Shown here: positions 16,565-21,824 of the stretch, one piece after another
Numbering within the stretch: position 1 is the stretch's first letter
Layout of the letters: every line of letters begins with the position of its first letter
IMG/VR virus record: IMGVR_UViG_3300030329_000974
Coordinates: 1 to 22,273 of that record
From: a virus
Reading direction: 5' to 3' (one strand)
DNA length: 22,273 nucleotides
Position numbers and translations under genes: made by a program
Notes under the pieces: model-generated
What the model saw: the letters and a program-made list of their open reading frames with translations, nothing else
Told to the model about the DNA's origin: nothing
The model's database searches: none

Positions 16565-16686
16565 TCCCCCCCATATTTCTCTGGGTGAAGACAGCCAAGG
16601 CATATATCCTCACCAGTGCCTAGCGTAACCCAGTTGTTTTCAAAGTAATCACATTGCTTGCCGCAGTATGCGCAGTTAAACAACAT
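16558..16686 (-). CDS. Small Cys4 zinc-finger protein, last gene of the leftward operon
   Basis: The ATG at 16686 gives a 42-residue protein. It contains FNCAYCGKQCDYF and then ICLGCL, so a C-x2-C ... C-x2-C pair that could bind zinc. The C-terminus is HPEKYGGDK. A GTG at 16752 would add 22 basic residues, but it has AGGAG only one base away, while ATG 16686 has AAGAAG about six bases upstream and overlaps the previous stop by 11 bases. The short form is therefore preferred. Function unknown; zinc ribbons of this size in phages are often DNA-binding or adaptor proteins. The stop lies in the terminator stem. Confidence 0.6.
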   Translation of the reverse strand: MLFNCAYCGKQCDYFENNWVTLGTGEDICLGCLHPEKYGGDK

Positions 16687-17122
16687 GGATCTTCTTGTAG
16701 ATTTGTGAGTTTTTGCTTTTGTGGCTTTGCGGTTCTTCTGGGCCAAATTCACGCTCCTTCAACTCGTCAACAAGATGCTCTGCTTTTTCTAACCAGCTTG
16801 TGAATTTTGGTGAAGGTACGCGCTGCGACACATGAATCATTGTGGAATGATCTCTGTTCAAAACATGCCCCATCCTGCAATACGATATGGTTGTATGATC
16901 TTCACAAAGGCGCACAAACAGTTGCCGTGCATCCACAAAGTATGCCTTACGGCGCTTGCCGCGTAACTCTGCCAAGCTAAACTTGGTCACTTGTTGCACG
17001 ATTTCAACAATGTCCAGAGCCTCTAACTCGCGGCAGTATTTTTTCCACTCACTTTGGGACATCCTGTTAGCTTTTTGTCTGCCTGATATTACCCTCTCCG
17101 ACATTGGAATTATCTTTTGCAC
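16676..17122 (-). CDS. DnaA domain IV-like DNA-binding protein (no ATPase domain)
   Basis: A 148-residue protein. Residues about 43-100 match DnaA domain IV, the helix-turn-helix domain that binds DnaA boxes: basic RGKRRKAYFVDARQLFVRL followed by GHVLNRDHSTMIH, equivalent to the RDHTTV signature. There is no Walker motif or AAA+ domain, so it cannot be a full initiator. It might bind the host or phage origin, recruit replication proteins or compete with host DnaA; these are inferences. The GTG at 17122 is chosen because GGAGG lies 6 bases upstream (GGAGGAAGAACGTG); the ATG at 17104 has no comparable site. It is the ninth gene of the leftward operon, overlapping both neighbours. Confidence 0.75.
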   Translation of the reverse strand: MQKIIPMSERVISGRQKANRMSQSEWKKYCRELEALDIVEIVQQVTKFSLAELRGKRRKAYFVDARQLFVRLCEDHTTISYCRMGHVLNRDHSTMIHVSQRVPSPKFTSWLEKAEHLVDELKEREFGPEEPQSHKSKNSQIYKKIHVV

Positions 17123-17279
17123 GTTCTTCCTCCGTTATCATTTCCATTGCTGCTTCAAAACAACGCTTCGTGAATAACAGCATTTCTCTGCTGTCCATTT
17201 TTTTGATGTGGAGGTTGCCATCAACGCTGACAGCAACCCCATCGTTTCTAGGTATCACTAGGAATGTTTGCTGGTTCAT
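17067..17279 (-). CDS. Small protein of unknown function (70 aa)
   Basis: Starts MNQQTFLVIPRNDGVAVSVD, with an N-terminal beta-strand pattern. A helix follows (REMLLFTKRCFEAAMEMITEEERAK), then a polar tail. I recognise no family. ATG 17279 has AAAGGA about six bases upstream; the longer in-frame extension to 17324 would overlap the preceding HTH gene by much more. Overlap with the excisionase-like gene upstream is 32 bases and with the DnaA-like gene downstream 56 bases, so expression is probably coupled. Confidence 0.55.
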   Translation of the reverse strand: MNQQTFLVIPRNDGVAVSVDGNLHIKKMDSREMLLFTKRCFEAAMEMITEEERAKDNSNVGEGNIRQTKS

Positions 17280-17463
17280 CCGTAATCCTTTCGATTTCGG
17301 CTCGTGTAATGTACCAACGCCCACCCAAACGCTTGCCCTTGATAATGCCCCTCTGGAGCATCCTGTTGACTATGTTGAGTTGAGCCTTGGTATCCTTGCC
17401 AAACAACACTAGAGCGGCCTCTCTGGGCCTTAGAAGCGCCTTAGAAGGGGATGTCTGGGTCAT
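17248..17463 (-). CDS. Excisionase / MerR-type HTH small DNA-binding protein
   Basis: A 71-residue protein. LLRPREAALVLFGKD, then IVNRMLQRGIIKGKRLGGRWYITRAEIER, is the pattern of the helix_turn_helix_17 / AlpA-Xis class: a recognition helix, a wing with K-R-L-G-G-R-W, then a helix starting with RAE. These proteins bend or mark DNA in excision, replication or transcription. No integrase is visible here, so an accessory replication or recombination role is as likely as excision. ATG 17463 (AAAGG about 9 bases upstream) is preferred over ATG 17493, which lacks a ribosome site and would overlap the SSB-tip gene more deeply. Confidence 0.7.
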   Translation of the reverse strand: MTQTSPSKALLRPREAALVLFGKDTKAQLNIVNRMLQRGIIKGKRLGGRWYITRAEIERITDEPANIPSDT

Positions 17464-17788
17464 CGTCCTCTGCCTTTGGCTGTGGTGCCGCATATTTGGT
17501 GCTGATTGCGTTGCCGATTGGCTTCATAGCTGGCTGTGAAATGCCGTCAGCGATACTGTCCTCACCCTCATACTCAGTGACACGGGAGATGCGAATAGAG
17601 ATAGTGCCATCCTCGTTGGCGAACAGGGATACTTGATGTCGCTGGCCTTCTCTGAAATGCAAATCGGCAGGAACCTTTTGCTCCGCTGAATAAGGCTGCC
17701 AATTGCTGTTGCTATACTGCGCCTTGCCCTTTCCCTCAGTGTTGGGAAACAGCTTGATATAGGTAAGTGTGTCATAGCGTCTAGCCAT
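17441..17788 (-). CDS. Probable single-stranded DNA-binding protein with SSB-like acidic C-terminal tip
   Basis: A 115-residue protein ending AEDDDPDIPF, very close to the conserved DDDIPF tip through which bacterial SSB recruits repair and replication proteins. The N-terminal ~85 residues (RYDTLTYIKLFPNTEGKGKA, later RHQVSLFANEDGTISIRIS) look beta-rich with aromatic residues, consistent with an OB fold, but do not match ordinary SSB that I can recall. A Pro/Ala/Lys linker joins the two. It directly follows the annealing-protein gene (8-base overlap), with AAGGAG upstream, the usual neighbourhood of a phage SSB. Likely coats ssDNA during recombination or replication. The tip is seen; ssDNA binding is inferred. 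Confidence 0.7.
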   Translation of the reverse strand: MARRYDTLTYIKLFPNTEGKGKAQYSNSNWQPYSAEQKVPADLHFREGQRHQVSLFANEDGTISIRISRVTEYEGEDSIADGISQPAMKPIGNAISTKYAAPQPKAEDDDPDIPF

Positions 17789-18401
17789 TCTTTTTTAACT
17801 CCTTCATGCGCTTCTGGCATAGGTTTTTGATTGTCTGGAAGATCTCAGGAAACTCTTTGTTTGCGATGTCCATGTACTTCTTTGTGAAGTCTGCGTTCAT
17901 CCAGTCGGTGATCTGCTTCATGTCAAACTCAGGCACACAATCCGCTGCTTGCTGTTCTAACTCTAACAAACTAGCCGGTGGCTGCTTGGGTGGTGGCATG
18001 GATGCAATAGCTTCTTCCTTTCTTCCCACGCCATCCATCTCGTTAGCTGAAGCATACTCGCCGCCAGCCAAGCCGAGGGATGCCAAGGCACGGCCAATGG
18101 CAGATGTCTCACAGTTCTCCACGGCGCTTGTCTTGTTGACGTTGCCTTGGCCCCTGATCTCCTCGGCCATGCCGCTGCCGACAATAGTGCCGTCCATGTT
18201 GTGTATTGTAGCTTTGACGACAACGCGCTGGCCATCGTCTACCAGTATGTGTGTGTCTACACCGTACTCAGTGCCGTGCATCTGCCGGAATGCTTCCATC
18301 CTATGCACAACCTGGGTGTACTTCTTGCCGCCGCGCTGTGTAACGCCATGGCTGGCGTTCAACTCAGAGACAAGGGCCATTGTTGGTTTGAGATCAGTCA
18401 T
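17781..18401 (-). CDS. ERF/Rad52-like single-strand annealing protein
   Basis: A 206-residue protein. After about 45 residues comes a beta-rich part (THILVDDGQRVVVKATI, DGTIVGSGMAEEIRG). The key segment at about residues 89-122, VENCETSAIGRALASLGLAG then GEYASANEM, matches the core of phage recombinases of the ERF/Rad52-type superfamily (TSA..RAIGRAL...G...AS..E). A Pro-rich linker precedes a helical C-terminus ending in KRMKELKKNG, perhaps for partner binding. These proteins anneal complementary ssDNA and usually act with an exonuclease and SSB, both present in this operon. ATG 18401 has GGAG six bases upstream. Subfamily (ERF versus Sak) is not settled by eye. Confidence 0.75.
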   Translation of the reverse strand: MTDLKPTMALVSELNASHGVTQRGGKKYTQVVHRMEAFRQMHGTEYGVDTHILVDDGQRVVVKATIHNMDGTIVGSGMAEEIRGQGNVNKTSAVENCETSAIGRALASLGLAGGEYASANEMDGVGRKEEAIASMPPPKQPPASLLELEQQAADCVPEFDMKQITDWMNADFTKKYMDIANKEFPEIFQTIKNLCQKRMKELKKNG

Positions 18402-18919: not shown

Positions 18920-19131
18920 CACACTCTCCACACTCTGATTGTGCCATCCGCTTGCTTGCGCGACGTTAATTGAATGCCTCGCATTTTTGCTGCGCCGTAT
19001 GCGTTATTAGCCAGCTTGCGGGACGGCATGACAAAGCTATCTCCAGATTGCATTTCTTCGATGAAATGCCACTTCGCATTGATGTCGCCCTTCTCAGGCA
19101 TGGGAATGTTTTTCTCGATTTTAATTTTCAC
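18919..19131 (-). CDS. Small conserved-looking protein of unknown function, GTG start (70 aa)
   Basis: The GTG at 19131 is selected: GGAGG lies exactly five bases upstream, and GTG overlaps the nuclease stop as TAGTG. The alternative ATG at 19143 sits on that ribosome site itself. The protein begins MKIKIEKNIPMPEKG and has a central FIEEMQSGDSFVMPSRKLAN. It ends RGIQLTSRKQADGTIRVWRV. The pattern DSF..P, then a helix, then RK..DG.RVWRV is one I know from many phages without function; the beta-hairpin end and basic residues could bind DNA. Confidence 0.7.
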   Translation of the reverse strand: MKIKIEKNIPMPEKGDINAKWHFIEEMQSGDSFVMPSRKLANNAYGAAKMRGIQLTSRKQADGTIRVWRV

Positions 19132-20024
19132 TAGAACCTCCATAGTTGGTGGGCTACGTCTACGATTGATGGGCCATGACGACGTGCTATTTCGTTGAAG
19201 TCTGGCTGTACGAGGCCAGCCAGCGTGCGCCATGATCCGTTGGCGGCCTTCAGCAAATTCTGACTTATCTGCCATGACCGCACTGCTTCAGCGTATGCTT
19301 TCTCCAAAGCGTCAGGCTTGAGTTGGTCACAGTTGTCAGCGTCAGCTATGTAGTAGCCAGACGCGGAGACAAACAGCAGCGACGGTGGCTCGCCTGTAGC
19401 TTTGTAATAGACAGCTTGCTGAATTTGTTGTTGCGCTGTGGGCGTGATGCCCTGCACCTTTGGTACTCGCCACGAGCGGGTGCCGTCTTTTTTTGGTGGG
19501 TTGCGCAGGGGCGGCTTGGCTTTCAGATCACACTGTATGCCACCGCCGGAATAATCTTGATAAAGCATTATAGGCACATCAATCTTTGGCTCGTTGTGCC
19601 AACGTTGATATTCACCTTCAATCATGTTGGCGTGTTTGAACGCCTCACGCACACCATCAACAGCATGCAAAATCATATCTGGAATGTAGTCTTTGAATGC
19701 TTCAAACTCTTCAGCGTCCTTGCCGCCATCCCATTGGCGCGGCTTGTACTTGTTGAAACGCTCCATAATTTGAGCAATAGCCTTGGCTGGTTCCATACCA
19801 TCCTGTTGGCCGACCATAGGTTGATAGGTGTCTACTCCAAGAATGAGGTTGGCACCACCCTGCACCATGATTCCGCACCACGGCCTAGCTGCCATCGGCA
19901 TCCTGACTCCAAGATGGCGGCAGTACAACTTTAAAACTAACTCCCACTTTTCTTGTGTAGCGCCTGACGAACTGTCATGCTTTGCGCCAATCGGCAATCG
20001 GTAGGTTGGTGTTTCTCTGTCCAT
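19131..20024 (-). CDS. RecB-like PD-(D/E)XK family nuclease (phage exonuclease)
   Basis: A 297-residue protein, first gene of the leftward operon. A metal-site-like GGGIQCDLKAKPP is followed by SWRVPKVQ. Then comes TAQQQIQQAVYYKATGEPPS leading to LLFVSASGYYIAD: the Q-x3-Y helix typical of RecB/Cas4-like nucleases, before a hydrophobic strand. Which acidic residues form the catalytic set is not clear by eye. With the annealing protein and SSB-tip protein downstream it would make the ends for single-strand annealing recombination, as lambda Exo does for Beta (analogy). ATG 20024 has AGGAAAG about 6-12 bases upstream, near a divergent promoter. An alternative is a related nuclease that trims replication intermediates. 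Confidence 0.7.
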   Translation of the reverse strand: MDRETPTYRLPIGAKHDSSSGATQEKWELVLKLYCRHLGVRMPMAARPWCGIMVQGGANLILGVDTYQPMVGQQDGMEPAKAIAQIMERFNKYKPRQWDGGKDAEEFEAFKDYIPDMILHAVDGVREAFKHANMIEGEYQRWHNEPKIDVPIMLYQDYSGGGIQCDLKAKPPLRNPPKKDGTRSWRVPKVQGITPTAQQQIQQAVYYKATGEPPSLLFVSASGYYIADADNCDQLKPDALEKAYAEAVRSWQISQNLLKAANGSWRTLAGLVQPDFNEIARRHGPSIVDVAHQLWRF

Positions 20025-20062
20025 TGTGTGCTTTCCTGTGGTTTTCTGTGCTTTCTGCGGGT

Positions 20063-20092
20063 GTTATTGCATACGACTTGACAGACTGTCAA
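20063..20092 (-). promoter_or_regulatory. Candidate leftward promoter of the recombination operon
   Basis: On the - strand TTGACA (20092-20087) is a perfect -35 box. AATAAC (20068-20063) is a 4-of-6 -10 box at 18-base spacing. Start of transcription would be near 20056, some 32 bases before the nuclease ATG. The -10 match is weak, so strength is uncertain. Confidence 0.5.
20078..20092. promoter_or_regulatory. 15-bp perfect palindrome, candidate operator overlapping both -35 boxes
   Basis: TTGACAG-A-CTGTCAA has 7-bp arms around a single central base. Each arm contains TTGACA, the consensus -35 element, on its own strand. It lies 21 bases before the ATG of a Cro/CI-like HTH gene and 54 bases before the divergent nuclease gene. 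Dyad symmetry of this size is typical of dimeric HTH repressor operators. Operator function is inferred. Confidence 0.65.
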
Positions 20093-20106
20093 TACATTTG
20101 TTAAAA
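20078..20106 (+). promoter_or_regulatory. Candidate rightward promoter of the HTH regulator
   Basis: TTGACA (20078-20083) is followed, after exactly 17 bases, by TTAAAA (20101-20106), a weak -10 with 3 of 6 matches in an A-rich region. Transcription would begin at about 20113, the A of the HTH start codon, so the message may be leaderless. Confidence 0.5.
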
Positions 20107-20112
20107 AAAGAT

Positions 20113-20316
20113 ATGACGTTATCTGAGTATCTAAAAGCAAACCGAATTAGTCAGGCTAAGTTTGCACGGCGCTGCAACTTGTCACCGGCTGCCATTTGTC
20201 GAATACTTGATGGCAACAGATATCCAACACCGGAAACGATGCGTCGTATTTTTCTAGCAACAGAAGGGCAGGTGAAACCTCATGACTTTTTTACCGAAAA
20301 AATGCGAACTATGTAA
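20113..20316 (+). CDS. Cro/CI-like helix-turn-helix transcriptional regulator
   Basis: A 67-residue protein with the HTH_3-type layout: MTLSEYLKANRISQAKFARR, then NLSPAAICRILDGNRYPTPE and TMRRIFLATEG. The recognition helix is SPAAICRILDG. Length and lack of a C-terminal domain resemble Cro more than CI. It probably binds the palindrome at 20078-20092 and controls both divergent operons (inference from position and symmetry). No Shine-Dalgarno sequence is present, only TTAAAAAAAGAT, consistent with leaderless or A-rich initiation. The gene overlaps the next by 35 bases. Confidence 0.85.
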   Translation: MTLSEYLKANRISQAKFARRCNLSPAAICRILDGNRYPTPETMRRIFLATEGQVKPHDFFTEKMRTM

Positions 20317-20470
20317 CGGTTCTGGATGGATTCGTGTGAGCAGCAACTGGGATGAGGGCGATGTTGTGCCTGATATCTGCCCTGATTGCGCTGGCACTGG
20401 TGAGTTTTATCTACAGCGTCCTGAGTTTTTTCAGGAAGCTGACATCGATGCGCAAGGCGCATTTAAATAA
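20282..20470 (+). CDS. Small zinc-ribbon protein with DnaJ-type CxxCxGxG motifs
   Basis: A 62-residue protein with CELCNGSGW (from residue 8) and CPDCAGTGEF (about residue 34): two CxxCxGxG elements, enough for one zinc site of the DnaJ central cysteine-rich domain, which normally has four. No J domain is present. Such isolated half-fingers occur in phages and may mediate protein binding; a chaperone role is not implied. ATG 20282 overlaps the HTH gene by 35 bases. The acidic C-terminus (EFFQEADIDAQGAFK) is not recognisable. Confidence 0.65.
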   Translation: MTFLPKKCELCNGSGWIRVSSNWDEGDVVPDICPDCAGTGEFYLQRPEFFQEADIDAQGAFK

Positions 20471-20481
20471 AGGCGGTATAG

Positions 20482-20685
20482 ATGGCACAACAGATTGCTT
20501 ATTATTGTTGCGACGTTTGTGACAGCACCTGGAGTACAGGATGGGCTGAACATTATACGATTAAAAATATGCGTGATTACTGCGCAGTATGTCAAACGAC
20601 ACCTAAACATGCAGAGACGTGCATATCCACGCCAATTTATGTTAAAGGCTCTTGCAGAAAAGAGCATTCAAATAAAGGAGTATAA
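20482..20685 (+). CDS. Small Cys-rich zinc-ribbon-like protein, unknown function
   Basis: A 67-residue protein. The N-terminal YYCCDVCDSTW and central DYCAVCQTT form two C-x2-C pairs about 23 residues apart, a plausible zinc ribbon, and further Cys residues lie at ETCISTP and GSCRKEH. Start ATG 20482 has AAAGGCGG seven bases or so upstream. Its neighbours are another zinc-ribbon gene and an AT-hook-like gene, so a DNA- or RNA-related role in early infection is possible. Confidence 0.6.
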   Translation: MAQQIAYYCCDVCDSTWSTGWAEHYTIKNMRDYCAVCQTTPKHAETCISTPIYVKGSCRKEHSNKGV

Positions 20686-20687
20686 CT

Positions 20688-20843
20688 ATGTTACAATCCA
20701 TCATCAGATTGTTTTTCCCCTCTCTCTCACAAACTGTGGCAGAGCAACCAAGTGCAACACCACCGCGCATTGTAGAAAAAACAGCGCCAAAGAAAGCTGT
20801 TGCAAAAAAGCGTGGCCGTGGCAGACCTAAGAAAAAGGTGTAG
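20688..20843 (+). CDS. 51-residue basic peptide with AT-hook-like tail
   Basis: MLQSIIRLFFPSLSQTVAEQ is a short hydrophobic/amphipathic start. It is followed by PSATPPRIVEKTAPKKAVAK and a C-terminal KRGRGRPKKKV. The GRGRP core flanked by basic residues is the AT-hook signature, which binds the minor groove of AT-rich DNA. AAAGGAG ends seven bases upstream of ATG 20688, a strong ribosome site that makes this a credible gene despite its size. A DNA-binding or nucleoid-associated role is inferred. Confidence 0.65.
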   Translation: MLQSIIRLFFPSLSQTVAEQPSATPPRIVEKTAPKKAVAKKRGRGRPKKKV

Positions 20844-20860
20844 TTTATCAAGAGGGTTTC

Positions 20861-21445
20861 ATGGACGATCTGACTGTTCAGTGCGCCACAGCAGATGATT
20901 TGACATATATCGACAGTCTGCAAAAAAAGAACGCTGAAGACTTGGCTTTTTATCCAAAGCAAGTTTTTGAACGCGAAGTAGAAAATTTTAGGGTGATATT
21001 GGCAAAGGTCAACGCTGAACCAGCAGGCTATATCTATCACGGCGCTTTAGGCCCAGCTTGTAAAATTCATCAAGCATGTATTCAATACGACCTACGCGGT
21101 CAGCTTTATGGTGCTGGCTTAGTACGCCATCTTTTGCAGATTGCTGATTTGTCAAATGTCCTATCTGTTACGCTGCGTTGCGGCTCAGACATTGCCGCCA
21201 ATGACTTTTGGAAAGCCATGGGGTTCTATTGTGAAGCGGTTACGCAGGGTGGCGTAAGGCGCATGAGGGATATTAACTGTTGGCGTTATGATTTACAGCA
21301 ACCTTTGTTTACTATCCAAGGTGAGCCGAGCCGCAAGAAAAAAGACGCATCGTTTTGGGCAAAGCGAGGAAATGTCTCTGCCTCACCATACGCTAGGGGC
21401 AAGCAAATGAGGGCTTACAGAAAGTTGATTACATCTAATGACTAA
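20861..21445 (+). CDS. GNAT family N-acetyltransferase (194 aa)
   Basis: Transfers an acetyl group from acetyl-CoA to an unknown acceptor. The acetyl-CoA loop is IQYDLRGQLYGAGLVRHLL (about residues 73-91, R-G-x-x-x-G-A-G), preceded by a beta strand pair with AGYIYHGAL. Motif B is seen in AANDFWKAMGFYCEA (about residues 110-124). The C-terminal ~50 residues (GEPSRKKKDASFWAKRGN and a basic Arg/Lys tail) are extra to the usual domain and could bind nucleic acid. AAGAGGG lies just upstream of ATG 20861. It overlaps the nuclease gene by 8 bases, suggesting joint expression. Confidence 0.75.
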   Translation: MDDLTVQCATADDLTYIDSLQKKNAEDLAFYPKQVFEREVENFRVILAKVNAEPAGYIYHGALGPACKIHQACIQYDLRGQLYGAGLVRHLLQIADLSNVLSVTLRCGSDIAANDFWKAMGFYCEAVTQGGVRRMRDINCWRYDLQQPLFTIQGEPSRKKKDASFWAKRGNVSASPYARGKQMRAYRKLITSND

Positions 21446-21824
21446 AATGCAGCGTAGCAAAGGCTCTGCCTTTGAAAGATGGTGCTGTAATGAGATTATG
21501 CAGCACCTAGGTTACGAGAACGTGCGCAGGAACCTCTCACAATATCAAGAGAAGGGCGGTGCCGATATCATCATTCCGTATTGGGCCATTGAGTGTAAGC
21601 GGTACGCCAAGGGGCCAGTGGGCGGGGCTGACGCATGGTGGCATCAGGCTGTTAACTCTGCTGGCGACCTTTCTCCGCTACTAATCTATAAATATGACCG
21701 GCACGAGCCTGTGTGTAAGCTGTTTCTCTGCGACGTGAACAAAGAGTTTACCGGCAGTGATGCAACGGTGCTGGTTTCTCTGCCTACTTGGTTCTACATT
21801 GTGCGCGAGGCTATTCCTTTCTGA
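21438..21824 (+). CDS. PD-(D/E)XK endonuclease, Holliday-junction resolvase-like
   Basis: A 128-residue protein with a clear nuclease core: SKGSAFERW gives Glu13, KGGADIIIPYWAIECKRYA gives Asp43, Glu52 and Lys54 (D...E-x-K), and WWHQAV supplies the following helix with Gln. Size and motif order are those of small phage and archaeal-type resolvases, which cut branched DNA before packaging or after recombination. Substrate is inferred. ATG 21438 overlaps the acetyltransferase stop; an ATG at 21447 is an alternative. It is the last gene of this rightward group; no hairpin follows at once. Confidence 0.8.
   Translation: MTKMQRSKGSAFERWCCNEIMQHLGYENVRRNLSQYQEKGGADIIIPYWAIECKRYAKGPVGGADAWWHQAVNSAGDLSPLLIYKYDRHEPVCKLFLCDVNKEFTGSDATVLVSLPTWFYIVREAIPF

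Follow-up and report, generated by a model that had tools for sequence, protein, structure and literature searches.

Control of divergent promoters by one operator region is already known. At the OR region of phage lambda, operators overlap the −35 regions of the divergent promoters PRM and PR, and the cI transcript from PRM is leaderless. In the Escherichia coli bio operator and in tetO of Tn10, the operator region likewise controls both divergent promoters. Dimers of the Cro/CI type, such as the 434 and P22 repressors, usually recognize a site with arms of about 5 bp and an uncontacted centre. In phage PY54, the whole genome holds a single 16-bp palindromic operator for Cro (OR3), situated between divergent genes, and the mRNAs are leaderless, starting at the AUG (PMC4488713). 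In prophage CP-933P, the counterpart of Cro is YdaS, which binds the intergenic DNA between two opposed operons and represses both promoters (PMC8630535).

The sequence analysed here (the window) is a stretch of 22,273 nucleotides from a virus, positions 1 to 22,273 of IMG/VR record IMGVR_UViG_3300030329_000974. An 88-nt gap between the start of a leftward gene (20024) and that of a rightward gene (20113) contains the dyad TTGACAGACTGTCAA (20078–20092, no strand assigned), in which 7-bp arms flank one central base. Its outer arms, TTGAC (20078–20082) and GTCAA (20088–20092), enclose a non-conserved N5 spacer, AGACT (20083–20087). Comparison with related phages indicates that the dyad is probably an operator for a single dimer of the adjacent 67-aa Cro-like protein, lying over the −35 elements of both divergent promoters.

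The bio operator and tetO involve other regulator families and other promoter geometry, and the likeness to them is one of description. The likeness to lambda comprises divergent promoters with a site over the −35 regions, a regulator with a Cro/CI-type helix–turn–helix (HTH) and, as predicted here, a leaderless transcript. However, lambda has three operators and two competing repressors, whereas one putative operator and one adjacent regulator are present here. PY54 resembles the locus in its small Cro protein, its single palindromic site between divergent genes and the leaderless mRNA, again predicted here; in contrast, OR3 represses cI alone and is up to 40 bp away from the cro promoter, while the dyad holds both −35 boxes (PMC4488713). 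PY54 is also a temperate phage with CI. At the present locus, the divergent gene encodes an exonuclease, and neither a tyrosine integrase (19 records searched) nor a serine recombinase (17 records) was found, several of the records being 31–37 kb and single records possibly incomplete. YdaS, the closest solved structure to the HTH protein, protects 65 bp with several repeats and stands opposite the CI-like PaaR2 (PMC8630535), whereas here there is a single 15-bp site, and the divergent position is not occupied by a CI-like partner gene. PY54 Cro, with its single OR3 and leaderless mRNAs, and YdaS, with its multi-site region, thus bracket this case. Nothing directly comparable was found in the literature on shared −35 boxes in back-to-back promoters, and a layout that makes each arm one of the two −35 hexamers is in keeping with known principles.

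A lysogeny switch of the lambda type was considered and rejected: the divergent gene encodes an exonuclease, not a CI-type repressor, there is one dyad, and no integrase was found in the records searched. In addition, a search for prophages in the genomes of 84,980 bacterial and archaeal species confirmed no relative of the exonuclease. With neither found, such a switch is unlikely, and the locus is better read as one that times and autoregulates early genes. In their structural genes the phages are similar to short-tailed phages, and an internal virion protein matches ones of rhizobial and Pelagibacter phages. The only cultured relatives found in the phage collection searched are HTVC106P and C72C1, with about 28% exonuclease identity. 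A search for a phage RNA polymerase gave no match, but the control likewise matched nowhere.

The rightward gene (20113–20316, + strand) had been described in the initial annotation as a Cro/CI-like regulator, and profile searches bear this out. The 67-aa product matches PF01381 (HTH_3) with 24.7 bits, above the curated cut-off of 23, and PHROG 35 (transcriptional repressor) with an E value of 3.6e-11. An AlphaFold2 model (pLDDT 86) predicts a five-helix all-alpha fold (helices at residues 3–9, 14–20, 25–33, 40–49 and 62–66), with the HTH at helices 2–3 and a putative recognition helix at residues 25–33. The best structural matches are HTH regulators, the first being YdaS of CP-933P, with 35% identity over the HTH. 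The protein is not a member of the Pfam YdaS_toxin family, against which it scores 15.8 bits (curated cut-off 30).

The leftward gene was said to open a recombination operon, and structure and gene order agree with this. It encodes a RecE/lambda-exonuclease-like PD-(D/E)XK nuclease (19131–20024, − strand) and is preceded by the Shine–Dalgarno sequence AGGAAAG (20037–20031, − strand). The protein has no convincing Pfam or PHROG match, but its AlphaFold2 model (pLDDT 94) matches RecE (Z 13.4) and lambda exonuclease (Z 9.2). In C72C1, the gene for a 28%-identical protein is divergent from a small repressor gene and is followed by genes for a Sak-like annealing protein and a single-stranded DNA-binding protein (SSB). 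The corresponding positions in the window (17441–18401, − strand) are occupied by a 206-aa protein of PHROG 11717, a family of unknown function, and a 115-aa protein with no family match; their places relative to C72C1 suggest annealing and SSB roles, respectively. Two further leftward genes were observed. A 148-aa protein at the far end of the operon (16676–17122, − strand) carries a DnaA C-terminal DNA-binding domain (PF08299, E 1.7e-13) and is possibly a replication or origin-binding protein. An 81-aa excisionase-like HTH protein (17248–17493, − strand) matches PHROG 1840 (E 4.9e-05), yet no integrase was found in the records searched.

Although repressor and exonuclease are ordered alike in C72C1, the TTGAC-N5-GTCAA dyad is absent between the two genes (L116:3459–3752). 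This suggests that the gene arrangement is more widespread than the operator proposed here.

The perfect palindrome is not significant by itself and is no rarer than chance: the window contains one with arms of at least 7 bp, whereas Markov simulation yields 3.3 on average. For TTGAC-N5-GTCAA, the chance expectation is 0.04 per 22 kb. Relatives were collected in two scans of viral contigs, with 43 loci matching the HTH protein and 62 the exonuclease. After removal of duplicates, 39 distinct sites, with exonuclease identities down to about 51%, were compared, and all retain TTGNC-N5-GNCAA without insertion or deletion. The dyad is exact or has one mismatch in nearly all close and middling relatives. 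In this comparison the sites had been located by their best match to the dyad pattern, which carries a risk of circularity. The alignment was therefore repeated for 36 distinct relatives, anchored solely on the HTH start codon and blind to the dyad. Again, TTGNC-N5-GNCAA occupies identical ungapped columns, in 36 of 36 rows, in agreement with the first analysis.

Changes were counted on a phylogeny of the exonuclease proteins. Eight of the 10 arm positions are unchanged (0, 0, 0, 4, 0 in the left arm and 0, 2, 0, 0, 0 in the right), whereas the spacer positions changed 8, 10, 14, 14 and 2 times and the left flank 9.3 times on average. Information content is 1.86 bits per arm position and 0.50 elsewhere. 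The exceptions in the arms are TTGCC and TTGTC, and conservation does not extend to the inner pairs by which the dyad reaches 15 bp. Invariant arms beside a variable spacer and flank indicate that the conserved unit is the two 5-bp arms, TTG(A)C and G(T)CAA, and that the centre between them is largely unconstrained. A chance palindrome is ruled out by this conservation, even though a perfect palindrome is no rarer than chance. The perfect 15-bp dyad of the initial annotation is thus present in the window, but only its outer arms are kept among relatives, and, judged from that comparison, the full symmetry in the window is partly accidental.

Each arm reads outward as TTGACA, rightward at 20078–20083 and leftward at 20092–20087, so that the two −35 boxes do lie in one dyad, as had been proposed. 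Both hexamers are perfect, and the site was missed by a simple promoter scan because both −10 boxes are weak. In the promoter facing the HTH gene, the −35 is followed after 17 bp by a weak −10, TTAAAA (20101–20106, + strand), the first T of which is invariant in all relatives. Among the spacings compared over 19 groups, 17 bp to a TA-rich −10 gets the highest score, and relatives have TATATT, TATTAT, TAAAGT or TACAAT at the equivalent place or within 1 bp of it; this −10 is therefore backed by comparison. In groups with the HTH gene directly downstream it ends 5–6 nt ahead of the ATG. Taking the usual distance from −10 to start as 6–7 nt, the HTH transcript is predicted to start at or within 1–2 bases of the AUG (20113 is the A of the ATG), as a leaderless mRNA. 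The rightward start expected at 20113 is thus consistent with the −10 spacing in relatives. No Shine–Dalgarno sequence for the HTH gene was seen in the window.

In the promoter facing the exonuclease operon (−35 at 20087–20092, − strand), the sixth base of the hexamer is A in about 96% of weighted relatives. This leftward TTGACA is better kept than the rightward TTGAC[A/C/T], in which the sixth base is not conserved. A TATGnAATA block is moderately conserved in the leftward −10 region, and spacings of 15 and 18 bp score best. In the window, a likely candidate is the extended −10 TG-C-AATAAC (20063–20071, − strand), with an 18-bp spacer and a predicted start near 20056, although the −10 assignment is unsure.

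These promoters raise the question of whether the dyad is merely two overlapping back-to-back −35 boxes, the arms being kept by the needs of the polymerase and the spacing inherited, with no repressor involved. Both arms are TTGACA-like, the exceptions TTGCC and TTGTC would be tolerable as −35 variants, and the rightward −10 at 17 bp is supported. However, the N5 spacer is free of insertions and deletions across the tree, whereas the flanking spacings shift by at least 1 bp, and this rigidity favours an operator over bare −35 boxes. The fifth base of sigma-70 −35 boxes is conserved no better than its neighbours. Here, in contrast, the C at arm position 5 is invariant while position 4 varies. 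Furthermore, a second, related promoter-like block conserved in these phages (record ~25215, − strand) carries TGTTGACA and no inverted second arm. Together, the invariant C and this one-armed block suggest that promoter needs alone do not account for the dyad, which is also linked to the gene of a DNA-binding protein. An explanation by promoters alone is accordingly rather unlikely.

A different role for the shared element, in this lineage of short-tailed phages in which no lysogeny gene was found, would be that the dyad is itself a switch. With one polymerase at a time on the element, the recombination and regulator operons would alternate even before the repressor builds up, and a single dimer would then lock both off. 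This is rather unlikely; if true, the self-switching dyad would be a minimal one-site timing switch of a phage, with a leaderless regulator mRNA.

The preferred reading, an operator of the adjacent HTH protein, agrees with the position of the site relative to its neighbours. The distance from dyad to HTH start is 19–21 nt in all but one of the relatives possessing the HTH gene. In L060, an ORF with its own Shine–Dalgarno sequence lies between dyad and HTH gene. The distance to the exonuclease ranges from 39 to 614 nt, because other ORFs are inserted between in several relatives. A fixed distance on one side and a variable one on the other suggest that the site belongs to the HTH gene. A two-fold symmetric site in a regulator's own promoter, conserved across relatives, is one mark of an autoregulated operator of the Cro type, and the locus has such a site.

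Some findings count against this assignment. In L099/L100 the HTH gene is absent and nine of the 10 arm bases are still there, with TTGCC as the left arm, which would also suit a site kept for its promoters. In addition, recognition-helix residues 25–27 vary among relatives while the arms remain constant, and no specificity code emerges. In the closest clade, the helix types SPAA, SRAA and SRAT pair with the inner bases A, C and T, but the pairing breaks in other clades and tracks descent. The covariation of recognition helix and dyad looked for in relatives is therefore not clear, whereas the conservation of the dyad itself is.

The dyad could instead be the operator of another protein, either a second Xre-type regulator (record 22761–22937, − strand) or a host factor. 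A second HTH_3 gene is found in the majority of the records searched, and G017/L100, without the first HTH gene, retains one HTH_3 gene and most of the dyad. Against this, the dyad keeps its fixed distance from the first HTH gene even where the exonuclease is displaced, and an adjacent autoregulated gene is the usual arrangement. Another binder is therefore considered distinctly improbable. The second Xre-type gene itself is small (58 aa; L107:3761–3937, − strand) and belongs to a separate leftward operon; HTH_3 matches besides the Cro-like gene occur in most records searched.

The exact dyad is found in 12 of 21 records searched, as a single copy in 11 and as two copies in one; the record of the window has one. 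A lone GTCAAC half-site is present in 17 of the 39 distinct relatives (L049, L050, L056–L058, L062, L063, L069, L073–L084 and L093). It lies upstream of the dyad on the exonuclease side, 16–19 bp away and in constant orientation, and could serve as an auxiliary half-site or as a further leftward −35. Neither the window nor its clade has a second half-site of this kind. The claim of one site, simpler than the three-site operators of lambda, therefore stands for the window and not for all relatives: control by a single site may be confined to certain lineages, including that of the window.

Activators of the Cro/CI family, such as lambda CI, sit near −42. That the HTH protein selects between the promoters, activating one and repressing the other in the manner of CI at lambda OR, is very improbable indeed, since the extra half-site in 17 relatives could permit asymmetric occupancy but is lacking in the window, and the centre of the dyad is at about −28 relative to each predicted start (20113 and ~20056), inside both promoters, where bound protein would exclude the polymerase.

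The centre near −28 is a repressing position. For the operator of the HTH protein, we infer binding, dimerization, repression of both promoters and the following order of events. Host RNA polymerase would start rightward at or next to the HTH start codon, giving a leaderless mRNA, and would use the opposite −35 to transcribe the exonuclease operon leftward. With rising levels of the HTH protein, a dimer would occupy TTGAC-N5-GTCAA and block the polymerase at both promoters. The outcome would be negative autoregulation and a timed shut-off of the early recombination genes.

The dyad provides a regulatory site recognizable from sequence in marine phages for which the collection of phages searched contains no close cultured relative. 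It also offers a very compact model for how two operons can be governed from one dimer site. Operator specificity could be examined on the roughly 40 natural variants of site and regulator, among which are relatives with extra half-sites, displaced genes or no regulator, and sites such as TTGAC-CGCGT-GTCAA, TTGAC-TATGT-GTCAA and TTGTC-AGGCT-GTCAA.

The rest of the rightward operon (20282–21824, + strand) encodes a Zn-finger-like 62-aa protein, small ORFs, a 194-aa GNAT acetyltransferase (20861–21445, + strand) within the regulator operon, and a RusA-like resolvase/PDDEXK endonuclease (21438–21824, + strand). In L079–L083 and L084, a similar protein also follows the HTH and zinc-finger-like genes. 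The second promoter-like block is leftward, ahead of the second leftward operon, and has the form AATATCATTTTTC-n-TGTTGACAGTCTAT...TGGTAGGG...AAAGGATCAA; its site at ~25215 of the record (~6216 in L107) is outside the window, and others are in G004, G001, G002, L010, L017 and L018. A similar block, AATATCATGGATCGTGTTGACA, occurs farther along the rightward operon region in L015–L026 and L073–L084.
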